Below, piece by piece: positions 44,201-56,200 of a stretch of DNA of 64,000 bases; positions within the stretch are counted from its first letter, which is position 1, and each line of letters starts with the position of its first letter. This DNA comes from Hexactinellida sp. DTS-2022. Lineage: Eukaryota; Porifera; Hexactinellida. Both the position numbers and the translations under genes were made by a program. Location: NCBI GenBank assembly GCA_028753945.1, contig JAPNXP010000018.1, positions 2,171,643 to 2,235,642 of the forward strand, in the 5' to 3' direction. The notes beneath the pieces are model-generated. The model had not been told where the DNA came from, ran no database searches, and was given only the letters and a program-made list of their open reading frames with translations.

Positions 44201-47200
44201 ACATTTTTAATGTCTAACTACGTATAACCAAATACGAGATATTAACAACATTACCATATATGGAAAGGTGAGAAACCAAAATAGGCGCCAAGGTCATTAC
44301 AGGTGACCTTCAAGATGGGTTCCCATCTTAAAATGAATTTCTTAGATAATCATTGTGGAAAATTTTATGCTTGTACCATAAAATGCACAATACCTTGTAT
44401 ATTTTGTGTCTATTCAGCTGTACTATTCCTCCATAATAGTTTATTTATTTCCAATCTTCCAGGGACTTCCTCTAATATTCGATTATATTAACTTTAAATG
44501 TTCAGGTTTTTAGTCTCCTTAACTGTTTAGGTACTAATTTACTTCAAAATATAGATCAGCCATGCTATCATTTGCGAATTTTTATGCATCTATACATAAA
44601 TTCGAGGCTATTTATAGAATTTTTAATGAATTCCTTATGTCGGCGAGATTTGCCTATATGTCGGGTCATTATCGGCTAGCCGAAATTTTTGGCGGCCGAC
44701 ATATAAGTAAGCCGATTTTATATTAAATATTATAATATTTATAACAGGGTTCCGCAAAATAGGTTTTTCAGGCCGCATGCGGCCTGAAACAACCTTATGT
44801 GTGGCATGAGAGACTTTTCTAATTTTCATCTGGCCTGTACACATATACACACTGATTATTACCTTTTGACTGGAGTCTTTTATGTACTTTTTGCTTTTCT
44901 ACATAAGTATCATTATACTATCATATTATAAATTAGTTATATGTTCTTGATACATTCTAGTGCACAATTATTTAAGATCAAATAATTGACAAATGCAGCT
45001 GTTCCGACAGTCATGTCACGGTTTGTGTGCAACTTTAAAGATGTTGAATAATATACTTTTAACAACCCATTTGAGTTGTTCCCCTATATTCAAATATCAC
45101 TATTAAAATGGAACAAAATTAACCACATTAATGGAAAGGCAAAGTCAATAAGATTCCTAGTTGTTTAATACGTCTTTTATTGGGTACGTATTACGTATAA
45201 TACGTATAATGTAATACGTATTATACGTATACTTTACTTTTAATATCACGCTCATGTAATTTTCTTTGAACAACTTTCGGTTTAATCGTTCTTCTTTTAT
45301 TATTAATCGACTCATAGTATTTGTCTATATAGTACAAATTTGATTATTTGCTAGCATCTTGTATTTACAATAAGTTTAAAAAATATACATGTCACGAGTG
45401 TAATTATTGGAAGATAAAATGGGAAAAATTCCCAACGTGGATGACCATATATGCTCACTATTTTTGACCATGTGGAATACGAATTTGATGTTCTTCAATC
45501 TATGTGACGTCCAAAAAAACTTTTATCAGCAAAATTAGTCCGCCTGTCCCAAAAAAATTTACAGAAATATTTTTCAAAATATAAATTTGGTTTTTTTTGG
45601 ATTAGTAAAAATTTCAATTCACATTTATAGCACACTATTTTGGTGCTAATTTTTTCTTCGTTCTTCGTGATATTTTACATGAATTCACATATTTGTTGGC
45701 ATTTTGACGAATTTATTGATCATAATGTTTACATATGATATATCAACATTTTGGTCTAAGATTTAATTATACTTTACTCAATAGTATACTTCATAATAAG
45801 GCGCGGCCTTCGAATTTACTAAACAAATGTAATGTTACACGTAGGAAATTTCTTACTATTCTCATTCTAGCGAAAAATTAATTGCAATAAAGTTTTATTG
45901 ATTATCTACGTATATTGGTAGTAAATGCAACCATAATTCATTTTCAAAATCGGACAAAAATACAGACAAACAGACTGATAGCAATAAATTATTGATATAG
46001 ATATACCCTAACCTAGAATTTCCTTATTTGAGTTATTTTCCAAGCCATTTGATTAAGTATACTATCTACTATATTATAATTAACAAGATTAGTAATCAAT
46101 ATCACAAGATTCTTCATCTGTGTCCCAATTATGGAGCTCTACCCTTTCAATATTGTCATAACTCTCCTCATCATGACAGTCTCTACATTCATCAGAAAAT
46201 ATATTCCCCTGTTCTTTAGATAGCCTTTCTGCATCATCCCAACGTAAATTATAATTATACGTCACCATACAATCAACCAATCGCTGTGGGTATAACTCGT
46301 GCTCTACATTAGTCTTAAATCTAAGTTCCCAAAGAGTTTGCATTCTGGAATGCAACATCTCTCCGCTCTGCTCTGAACTTATTGCTGCCCCTGCTGTTGA
46401 TTGAGGTTCGTAAAGGAGGAAGTAATCCGTATAATGGTCGGAAAGTATGTGTGACTTTAATGACCAAGGTAAGCCGGTTGCATTCCATGACTCCCTGAAT
46501 AGACAAATACTCTCTTCCCAACCAGGCATTCTAAAAAGACCCATACACCTGTCTTTTACCATCTTTAACGATTTCAATGCATTTATCAGGGAGGTATAAT
46601 GGGTAGGGAATGGTATAATATCTAAATTATCCAAAAGTCGAGAACAAGAATTTCCTTCTAAAGCGCCATCCCAGTACTCAGATCGATATACTTTGCATCT
46701 TTGTAAAGCTTGACAGTGTTGTTTATATAGTAAACGGTCATATCGGTTAGTCGCATTCTGGGATGACCTAGCCACACCATACAACCGATTTACGAGACCT
46801 AGAAGTATATGGAGAGGAGCAAGAGCAAGTATTTCCATAGTTGAATCTGACCACCGGATAATTGGTTCATGGGAAACGCTATAGTTTTTTGAATGAAGGT
46901 CTTTAATTAATTCCTTATATATTCTTGCACGAGAAGGTGTTCCAGTACATTTTGTGTTCTTCCGCCATGTACAGAATGGGCAGGGGTACTTGCTGGATGC
47001 CTGCTGAATTCCAACGAGCATTGCAGCCACTTTAAAATCACAAGCAATTTGGATAGGGATACCTAAGTTAAATATGTTTCGAATTGATGTGAAATTTAGC
47101 ATTGACCGCAGATTTTCTGAATTTTCAGACGCGTGACCCATCGCAATTATAAAATTTGAAAGAACGCTATTAGGACTTGGTAGATACAGACTATTCGGAA

Positions 47201-50200
47201 GCATTGAAACGATATTGACAGACAGTTTGAGGAATTGTTTGCCGCCATCAAGCTGTACTTTAAGTCTAGAGATTCTATTCGACTGTTCATGCGTGATAAT
47301 ATTCAATAATCTTTCAACATCAGTACAAATTCCAATTGGAATTAGTTAAAAGTTTTCTGTTGCTGAACGCTTGATCTTGATGGATACTGAAGTGAATATA
47401 TCTCCAAATATAGACCATTTTTCGTCCCATGTTCCTTTTATTCCCCCATAGGAAAACAAATCCCTTCTTTGCGAAGAATTCTTCCAAGTTCAAAATAAGA
47501 CTTTTTACCCAAGCCAAGATGTCCTAACCTCTGCATAGCTCGAACTTCCTCTCTGCTCAAAACATGTTTACTAATGTTGTTGTATTTTGCACTCTTATAC
47601 GGAATTGTAGTTACAGCTAATTGATTATTCGAATCGAAAGGGTGATGTAATGATAGAGTATTTAATGGAGTAATAAGGCTACTGTCACTAACTGAACCTT
47701 CGAGGGTATTTACCAGGAAGTTAGCAGTGAGATATTTAGTGTATCCACGAGATTCCACCCTTTCTGCGAAAAGTTTTCCAGCTTGCTGAGAAACTTGTGG
47801 GCGTTTCATAACTCGTTTGCAAAAGTCGATATCATGAATATCATCACTCACTCCACACTTGCTGCACATTAGCCTAACAGGGGACTGTTCTATAGGCCTA
47901 CCAGGATTAGGACCTTGACTCTTGAGTTTTGAATGATAATTATTTATGGAGGACGAGTATATTTTGCATATATAACATCGATCTGTATGGGTACAGAGAA
48001 TCGCCTTACGAGTAACGTTATAAGGAATTTCGACATTTTGGTTGGATTCGATATTTGATCTATCAAAATGCCATTTTTGTCTATTAAGTTTACCACTTTC
48101 TAAGTCTGATAACCGTGACCTACAACTACTACAAAATATCTTTGGCTTATAAAGGCCCACTATTTCAGCGCGAAGATCTATGTTATAAAACTTATAAGCT
48201 CTGTCAATCACCAGTTTAGTAGGAGTCAGTCGCAAATTCTTCTTTGGCAAATCTTTTGGCGATAGCCGCATATAACAGAATCGGCATACTTTGTAGAGTG
48301 AATCTACGTGATACTCATCCCAAATGTTTAAAAGATTATCTGGTATTACTAATGAACAAGACATGTAGCTGAAAACTGAATGAAGAATTAACTTTTTGTG
48401 CCTCTTATATATAAATAGTATGGATATGGTTAACACATAATAACAATAGATTACCAGGGCTCGACAAATGCGGTGGTTTGATGGTTAACGCCACCATAAA
48501 ATTCATACCTAGCCACCAAAAAATTACGAAATAAACATACATAAGCTACATGGTGGTAATTAATTAATATATCAACAGAAATTCTATACGTCAAGCACCG
48601 TCGATTACCACATAGCGTGTTATGATGAAGTCTTATATCCACACTAACATTTAAATGTGAGGTGAAATATTTGTTTCACCTCACATTTAAATATAATTTC
48701 ATGGTTTTGGCATTTTAGATGTAATTCACACTATACAAGTATGGTGTAGGCCAACTTTAGAGGTGTTGAATATATTCGGCAAAATATCAATAAATGTATT
48801 TTGAGTCAGAAAGCATGTAAATATCACGAACGAAGAAAAAATTAGCACAAAATAGTGTGCTATAAATGTGAATTGAAATTTTTACTAATCCCAAATTTTT
48901 TTTTTTTTTTGAAAAATATTTCTGTAAATCTTTTTGGGACAGGCGGACTAATTTTGTTGATAAAAGTTTTTTTGGACGTCACATAGATTGAAGAACATCA
49001 AATTCGTATTCCACATGGTCAAAAATAGTTAGCATATATGGGCATCCACGTTGGGAATTTTTCCCATTAGATCTTCCAATAATTACACCCGTGATGTACC
49101 ACTAAATTTACTTCGAAAACATCCCTGGTTGCCGGTTGATCACATATATTTTACATAACAGTCAAGCTAAATGGTTAGATTTACGTAGTAATATTTTCAT
49201 TATTTCTTGAAGAATTCATATAAATTTTATGGATTTGACTCTCTATGTCCGGACATAGTCAAATTAATTGAAATATGAGTAGATGGAGTTATAATTTTAA
49301 CTAGCGCGCTTCGCTTGCTAGGTCGCTTCACGGCAGAACACAACCACACACCAACCGCTTCGCGGTTGGTGTGTGGTTTTTATACTCCTAATATTGATTA
49401 TAAAGCGTAAATAGGCCTAAATACTCAAATTTAACAATGTGAAATTTTAGTGATTACGTCATCATGCGATAATGAGTAAGCATATTGGTGATCTGGTGTG
49501 ACCAATGTGTCCGCATCATTAATGTACATGTTCTATTAAATTTTCAGATTTTTATCTCTTAGAGGGCTCGAATTATGTGCGATTAATAAGTGAATTTTCA
49601 GGGAATTTTGAGTGGAAACCTCAACTTGTTGGCGGGTGCCAAAAGTTACCCCTATATGCCAAAAATAACATTTGGAAACCGTCCACTTTCTTCAATCAAC
49701 TCGTAACATACAAACAAATATATATATACACCCACCCAGTTTTTAATAGTATAGAATAGAGCTAGCAATAGCTGTTTCCATGGTTATAATCCTACCATAT
49801 CTAATAGTAATAATAGCTGCTTGCATACATACTATATTAGTTTCTAAAAATACACATTTATCAATTTCTCAGTCCTAAAATTCACCGATTTGACTAATGA
49901 GTCTTTGTGAGATTTTCTTATTGGCTCTTGTTGCTCCCATCATTATCTTGATTAGAAACATAATTTTAATGTTTCACAAGAGTTTTCAAATTCTTCTTTT
50001 GGCCTTTTCATGGCAGATTATAGATGGAATATTTTTGATATTTCCTTCTCTCCTATCATTTACTCTTCTTTCAGAATTCGTTAATGAAGTTGTAATTATT
50101 GGAATAGTGGCAATTGTAATAACATTTACAATAAAAAATTCATACAACCCACAAACTTTTAAGATATTTGTGAATCTTCCTCTCTATTCTGGTTCCAAAA

Positions 50201-53200: not shown

Positions 53201-56200
53201 TCTCGACCGATTAGATTACAGTCTCAGTATTCTATAATGCACACTTAAACAAATTTAAGTTTAGACGAAGATAAATTACCTTAAAACGATTATACAAGTA
53301 TAGTATATTGGAAACCCGACTATATTTAATTACCTGTCCAATATATTTCATTAAATCAAATCATTAATAAAAAATCTCAACAAATTTCAAATACATACTA
53401 TATTTGGTAAACTAAAATTACCAACCAGCAAAATCTTCTTGTAGATACGAATTAATTATCGGATTATGAACTTTCCAAAATTTTGAGTGGAATGAAACAA
53501 TTAAAATATAATACTATTAGATAGTACTGTTTTTAGTGCGACCTCGATAATCCGAACTCTTCTATCATGGTCCCAATGTTCTGTAATATAGTTCAGCCAA
53601 AAATTATCCGAACTGTAGAATATGTGAACTTGTTTAATAATTAACAGGCCGCAACGAGTTCGGATAATCAAGGTTACACTGTAATAGGAATTTGAAAGCG
53701 CTATAATTTAGGAAAACTTGCTTCCTCCGGATGAAGATGCCAGACGGGAAGTTACTGAAAATTTCAGAAAGCTGACAGAGGTGTACTCTCCTTTACGCAA
53801 ATTAGAACTACTCTTGGACGCAGTTAAACTGGTATACAAATCGGTAGGTATATTCAGTCGTATGAATTCATTGTATTAAACAAAAGAACTCTTCCGATTA
53901 AATATAAAACATCCAATGTACATATTTTAAATTAATAATGTGTCTAACTGCTGTTTAAGAACCCAAACAGGGGGGGGGGGCGATTTAAAACTGTAATGTA
54001 TTCAGAGCATTAAGTTATGCAGCCTTCCCAGCCGCCCTCTTAGTCTTTGCATTCTCGTTTTAATTTGCCTTCATTTTTGAGAACTTTTTTTTCGAGAACT
54101 TAATATAAGTCAACCCTCAAACCAATTATTTTGGTTAAGAGTACTAAAAATCTTCTTTAGCACAAAAATGTACTCATTTAACTCGATTGATAATACAGGT
54201 ATTGGAACACCGTTGATTTGTGCTTAATGAATCGAAATATTCTACCGTTTGTCGATCATTTCAAACTTGATTCACAAAATAGTTGTAATTTTGGTTGTAA
54301 ACTGACGAGTGAATTTATTAATGTGGCACAACATGCAACCAGAGTTAAAATGGCATTATAAAAACTGCTATCAATTGAAGAATTTCCTGCATTCGATGCA
54401 TATAAATTTTCGACAGGTCATCTTACTTTATTTATTGTAATAAGTATGTATGACAAATTTTAAATTAATTATACTTAACAACAATTGTGTATTTTTAATA
54501 TTAAAAGTATTTCAGTGCGTCATAAAAGAAGTGTTTGATGCAGTGGCCTAACGCCAAAGCTCCGGGCCCTCACATTGCAATTATAAGTGCTGGAATGTAT
54601 TACACCAGTGGTTCCCAACGGCCAACCTGGGTCTACAAATGGCTGTAAGGGTTCCACAAGAAGTATTACGGTCAATGGTAGTGGTCCACGGTTGAAAAAG
54701 GTTGAATATACGGGTATTACGTATACCTCTTGAAGAGGTATAATTGTTGATACAAACACCTAATACCGCATTTACTCGAATAGTAGTCTATGCGGTTATT
54801 ATTTTAGCGGCCCTCTGGGGCAGGGTTGATAAAAATCATGATTTTCTTTTAAAATAAAAAAATCCGATTTTTTTAATTAAATCAGAATTTTGATTTTGAT
54901 AGTTTTTTTTTGCAATCTATATCACACTGGCGTATATTTTTTGGCTAATAGATTAATTACATTGCTAATGACTCATTATCAATGTATTTCTTTTCTTTTC
55001 GCAAAAAACAATAAACATAAATAATCTGATTAAAATCAATAAATCTGATTTAGGCCGTATAAAATAAATAACTTGTTTATCATCCCCGCCCGCCCCAATT
55101 TTTACTATCCGTCCGGATCTATTTTATTATTATCTTATGAACATAATCGTACAAAATATAAGCAATAAACTTGTGTAAAGTACCTACTATGCATAAATTT
55201 TTAATAAGTCCTATATTTTAGAGCATTACTTTAATTATTTGGGCATTGTCATGTTATTTTCTAATTAAATAAAATATTTATATTTATTTTTGGCATAGGA
55301 TGATGCGTGACCACGGATGATGTTATTTGCATATTAATGGGAATAAAAAATAAAAATAAAATCCCGTCCGCCGTCCCAATTTTCTCGAAAAATATGGATG
55401 ATAAACAAGTAATTTATTTTATGTGGCCTAATAAATAAATAAAAATCGGATATTTTTTATTAAAATCATGATTTTATAAACAAAAATCATTAATTTAAAT
55501 CAAACAACCCTGCTCAGGGGACAAATAATGTGAGTTGAGCTATTCTTTTATATTCTCTATTATTCGAATAAATACGGTTTACGTAAATTATATCTACACC
55601 CTCTAAATGTTATTACAACGATGTATTTTTATTTTGTCACTTCACTTCCCAAGTCTAGAATAATTCCTAAGCTATTTTATAGCAACAAAATACTACGTAC
55701 TACTATTAGTATTCTTATGTCTAACCCATAGGCATAGAAGTTATGCCAAACCCCAGAAAGTTTGCCTTGGCAGGGGTCTGTACAACAAACTAGTATACTA
55801 AAGAACGTTCTTTAGTTAGAAGCATGTTCTAGAACATGCTTCTAGTACGAAGATATCTTACAGTGCATCCAATGTTATTTAATTATTTAGGGAAGGCAGT
55901 ATATTGTGCAATATAGGTGTCCCAAATAATGTGATATTCCTATAACTGGACAATTTCAGAGCAAATACAATTTTTGTAAGAGAAAATGACTCTTGTTAAA
56001 TACCCGCCCGAGAGGAGGTTAGATTGTCCGAGTGCCTCCTGAATCCTTCCGGGCTATTTCTACGCCTACGGTCTGTCTGGACACAACAGACAAACAGTCA
56101 ATACATTAGATTTATTTATGTAATAAGGTTGATAGAAATACAAGAAATAATATTGCATTTACTTATGCCTACGTCCTAATTGATATGTAGTTTCAAAGAG

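Follow-up and report, generated by a model that had tools for sequence, protein, structure and literature searches.

Chapaev DNA transposons are recognized by target-site duplications of 3–4 base pairs (bp), CAC...GTG ends, a catalytic Asp-Asp-Glu (DDE) triad and the motifs C(2)C, LH and H(4)H, whereas Chapaev3 elements have 3-bp TWA duplications (PMC4079192). A Chapa zinc domain is common to Chapaev and RAG1, and a RING domain is found in two Chapaev subgroups (PMC4411706). A CMCT clade is defined, with zinc motifs common to its wider membership (PMC12730594), and the Transib duplication is given as 5 bp (PMC8355894). Here we describe an element in a 64,000-nucleotide stretch (hereafter the window) of contig JAPNXP010000018.1 (positions 2,171,643 to 2,235,642) from the sponge Hexactinellida sp. 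DTS-2022. With a probability of about 0.89, it belongs to the Chapaev superfamily of cut-and-paste DNA transposons (CMC/CMCT clade, related to Transib and RAG1), and its inverted ends are long (~325 bp).

Ends, copies and insertion sites

The element spans 3701 bp (45393..49093, unstranded), with termini CACGAGTG...CACCCGTG and boundaries common to five two-ended copies. Junctions compared among these copies place ATGT duplications at 45389..45392 and 49094..49097 (both unstranded). The terminal inverted repeats, 325 bp each, lie at 45393..45717 (+) and 48769..49093 (-) and are identical at 294 of 316 aligned positions (93.0%). A prior sequence-only reading had already recognized long, well-matched inverted ends (put at 300 bp), but it set the ends at 45388 and 49096 and took TA as the target; the element is real, and its ends and duplication were misread.

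That reading had proposed a genome-wide copy search as a check, and this search fixed the ends and the 4-bp duplication. The query 45388-46388 returned 17 rows from the sponge's own genome (G000, 112.4 Mb, 18 contigs): six left-end/gene matches, six right ends, one end-only fragment (C11:5695409), three gene pieces of sister families and one short match (82 bases at 76%). Six copies bear the gene, the window copy included; the sixth, on C1, has a left end without its first bases. The other five are two-ended, and in each an exact 4-bp repeat stands at one fixed offset from the same end (chance 9e-13, assuming uniform bases), namely ATGT in the window, GTAG (C11), GGGT (C5), CCGA (C16) and CCTG (C3), with no common sequence. 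In four of the five, the termini read CACGRGTG...CACCCGTG, that is, CAC...GTG ends as in Chapaev.

Two sister families occur in the same genome. Family 2 (L015, L016, L017) has CACGGGTGTAAT ends and inverted repeats of 405-430 bp; all three copies examined have 4-bp duplications, and one has an altered end base. In family 3, of which two copies were examined, the inverted repeats measure about 540-545 bp, and the C4 copy carries AACT on both sides. Over the three families, the duplication is 4 bp in nine of the ten two-ended copies examined.

The insertion sites were compared with uninterrupted relatives. The C3 copy lies within a repeat for which, with the best 40 of 224 candidates scored, at least 41 rows were obtained, two being its own flanks; all six relatives fetched are uninterrupted at the site. 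In three of them CCTG occurs exactly once, and the other three have a variant of it that differs by one base. The window copy, its own gene broken, is inserted within a repeat that belongs to an older family. From the best 40 of 213 candidates, at least 40 rows were found for this site, two being its own flanks and the other 38 spanning the joined site; among eight relatives fetched, length varies at the site, so that the interruption is visible but the exact base is not. The window copy is 99.8% identical to the C11 copy over 3383 bp and is thus probably a recent insertion. On C5, the insertion falls inside an open frame that runs on across the joined flanks. This frame, in locus L010 (G000:C5:1199500-1206000), has at least 270 amino acids (aa) and hydrophobic stretches. 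Separately, a 648-aa frame (L014 2190-4133) lies ~450 bp from the end-only fragment and contains GGGAGVGKST and DEISM, which we take to be helicase motifs.

A single transposase with a predicted RAG1/Transib-like core

The gene is on the - strand. Its N-terminal part (47438..48364; 308 aa from the first Met, plus stop) comprises a Chapa- or RAG1-NTD-like domain (NTD, N-terminal domain), followed by the beginning of the core; it contains CxxC motifs at 48275-48286, 48122-48133, 47966-47977 and 47855-47866 and a single C at 47819-47821. The C-terminal part (46089..47345; 418 aa plus stop) encodes the predicted RAG1/Transib-fold core, with D residues at 47247-47249 and 47037-47039, C(2)C at 46971-46982, the H of LH at 46809-46811, H(4)H at 46434-46451 and E residues at 46371-46373 and 46359-46361. 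The sequence-only reading had noted a CxxC-rich N-terminus and, in the core, QLDGG, IACDFK, YPCPFC, two histidines and ISSEQSGEML; all are confirmed, the two His being paired. It took the protein to be two-part, which the copies contradict: the stretch between the frames (47346..47437), site of the frame break in the window copy, is open in L010 (the C5 copy, 773 aa) and L016 (family 2, 768 aa). Their frames are continuous across both parts, and therefore the two window frames are one ~760-aa transposase, disrupted in this copy. Family 3 also has an uninterrupted frame (L028, 760 aa); the remaining same-family copies read are each broken in at least one place.

In the genome, the C-terminal part as query gave at least 90 rows, with 100 of 112 candidates scored, and the N-terminal part gave 45. 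Five full-length proteins were aligned; relative to the first, identity of the other four is 57, 56, 26 and 22%. Invariant in all five are C27, C30, C78, C81, C130, C133, C167, C170 and C182 in the N-terminal part and D373, D443, C462, C465, H519, H639, H644, E665, Q666 and E669 in the core; the L preceding H519 is present in four of five and is V in L050. A 19-row alignment, many of whose rows are fragments, has zero invariant columns. Families 2 and 3 differ by a synonymous divergence (dS) of 1.83 and a nonsynonymous divergence (dN) of 0.23, and the two compared with the window's family give a saturated proportion of synonymous differences (pS) of 0.81 against a nonsynonymous proportion (pN) of 0.28-0.30. 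From these values, the frame is maintained by purifying selection.

More distant proteins of the same genome carry the same core motifs (L049 683-2710, L051 777-2480, L054 350-1456, L050 415-2541 and L052 128-1573). L052 has a SEEQGERFHQD block. L050 has a sub-threshold match to DUF1280 (E 1.6e-4), and for this reason DUF1280 may represent part of a transposase of this kind.

Fold prediction, likewise proposed by the sequence-only reading, gave 917 Foldseek matches, and all 36 at E<=0.001 are RAG1, BbRAGL or HzTransib. Over the aligned core, identity to RAG1, ProtoRAG and Transib is 12–13%. The interpretation given by the sequence-only reading, which had hinted at RAG1/Transib, is partly supported. 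The core is predicted to adopt an RNase H fold of RAG1/Transib type with a DDE triad and a site made up of C(2)C, LH and H(4)H. An RNase H-fold nuclease with two Asp, one Glu and an internal zinc site had been suggested; fold and motifs agree with this, and from conservation the catalytic Glu would be either E665 or E669.

An N-terminal zinc domain resembling the RAG1 NTD and ZAD

A profile of seven N-termini was compared with 177,635 PDB sequences at E<=10. Three matches resulted: the ZAD of Drosophila Pita (7pok, 0.018), RAG1 (21wb, 0.03) and penicillinase repressor (0.83). A chance-looking match of E 0.022 arose in another PDB profile search, so such values need support, and shuffles were compared. 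Against the RAG1 NTD, the domain scored 35.5 in hhalign, with none of 200 shuffles as good (maximum 23.6) and none of 100 when Cys was held fixed (maximum 22.1). Against ZAD, it scored 30.5, with none of 100 shuffles (maximum 22.4) and none of 100 Cys-fixed shuffles (maximum 19.9) as good. Compared directly, the RAG1 NTD and ZAD scored 13.3, a value equalled by 10 of 100 shuffles, and thus do not match.

The domain therefore appears Chapa-like, an identification with Chapa that goes by way of its likeness to the RAG1 NTD. Tentatively, and at somewhat less than even odds, it may be a bridge, sharing ancestry both with the RAG1 NTD and with the ZAD of insect zinc-finger transcription factors. 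If so, a single transposon-borne zinc domain would be present both in part of the V(D)J recombinase and in a large class of insect regulators. Among the open-licence papers searched (subscription journals lie outside this set), none uses 'RAG1' together with 'ZAD', each taken as a whole word. The N-terminal match opens the source of the RAG1 N-terminal region to structural tests and suggests a link to ZAD domains.

Placement among known transposons

The duplication (4 bp) and the CAC...GTG inverted repeats are those of Chapaev; D373, D443, E665 and E669, which would supply the DDE triad, are invariant in a predicted RNase H fold; C(2)C, LH and H(4)H are found in the five-protein alignment; and the Chapa zinc domain is recognized through RAG1 NTD similarity. 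Every testable hallmark is thus present, and the duplication differs from those of Chapaev3, Transib and Tc1/mariner; we therefore provisionally regard the element as a new Chapaev family. The undescribed family proposed earlier as a candidate stands as a family, within a superfamily that already has a name, and the candidate 'new superfamily' is removed.

Several results weigh against this placement. It is made by hallmarks and predicted fold, not by a tree. The C3 copy has CAT in place of CAC at one end, and its repeat can also be read as 5 bp; the family 3 C1 copy has no matching 4-bp repeat. Mean predicted local distance difference test (pLDDT) is 63.6 for the whole-protein model and 59.5 for the N-terminal model, which has no Foldseek match at E<=0.001 and ZAD only among low-scoring rows. 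In sequence, the core scores 22.1 against RAG1 alone, near background (5 of 150 shuffles reach it), with an hhalign probability of about 1% and the first D region misplaced in the alignment; whole-protein profiles did not find RAG1 among PDB sequences, and the whole-protein search there named nothing.

Among the alternatives, an unnamed, deep lineage within the CMCT clade that is sister to Chapaev and shares CAC ends, 4-bp duplications and the Chapa-like domain with it by descent survives best, though it is improbable. In its favour, the Pfam search advised by the sequence-only reading gave no match above a family's cut-off. Moreover, same-genome proteins retain the motifs at 22-26% identity, so the group is deep, and its inverted ends measure 325 to about 545 bp. 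However, Pfam may hold no Chapaev model, so its silence is no argument, and the testable published Chapaev hallmarks are all there. Far less probable is a Transib or RAG-like (ProtoRAG) transposon. The fold matches are RAG1, BbRAGL and HzTransib, and the RAG1 NTD has a likeness in the N-terminal domain, but the fold does not decide between Transib/RAG and Chapaev, because the zinc motifs are common to the wider CMCT clade (PMC12730594). Against it stand the near-background core similarity to RAG1, the 4-bp duplications in place of the 5 bp given for Transib in PMC8355894 (the C3 copy alone is readable either way), and the region itself, where no frame >74 aa besides the transposase is listed and hence no RAG2-like gene in one piece. 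The TA-targeting element of new type first proposed can be set aside: TA pairs lie near both ends of the window copy, but GTAG, GGGT, CCGA and CCTG flank the other four two-ended copies.

For the Chapaev transposon favoured here, there is direct support for the ends, the 4-bp duplications, the empty sites, the fold prediction, the motifs and purifying selection. By analogy with RAG1/Transib, its single ~760-aa protein, combining a Chapa-like zinc-binding domain with the RNase H core, would perform all steps: it would bind and pair the CACGRGTGTAAT ends as a dimer, nick at the edge of the CAC...GTG termini and probably form hairpins on the flanks by the nick-and-hairpin route. The free 3' ends would then be joined to the target at positions staggered by 4 bp, with little preference for site.

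Other features lie in and around the element. Inside it, upstream of the gene, are two perfect 19-bp inverted arms with 6-bp spacing (48649..48692, unstranded). A perfect 17-bp inverted repeat with 3-bp spacing lies beyond the right end (49342-49378), and to the left (45188-45233) a ATACGTAT-rich palindromic unit is present in two 23-bp copies that follow each other head to tail and are 87% alike. At 54599-54610 (- strand), CACTGGTGTAAT differs from the element end by one mismatch and has no evident partner end.

For studying distant relatives of the RAG recombinase, the element offers long-ended copies that are nearly identical, and its sister families offer open frames. ZAD proteins are not known to be transposases, and the match of insect zinc-finger protein ZADs (Pita, M1BP, CG2712) to the N-terminal domain is marginal. 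Tc1/mariner was rejected, as the sequence-only reading had also judged, since there is no TA duplication. Chapaev3 (Merrow, Garfield, Conan) shares the core motifs, but the 3-bp TWA duplication ascribed to it in PMC4079192 differs from the 4 bp without common sequence seen here. Unlike RAG1, ProtoRAG and Transib, with 5-bp duplications, the element makes 4-bp duplications, and no RAG2-like frame is seen. From the two RING-bearing Chapaev subgroups it differs in that no RING is seen after its Chapa-like domain, and the inverted ends of this and its sister families, at 325 to about 545 bp, may set it apart from other Chapaevs; in termini, duplication, DDE core with its zinc motifs and N-terminal zinc domain, it is Chapaev that it resembles.
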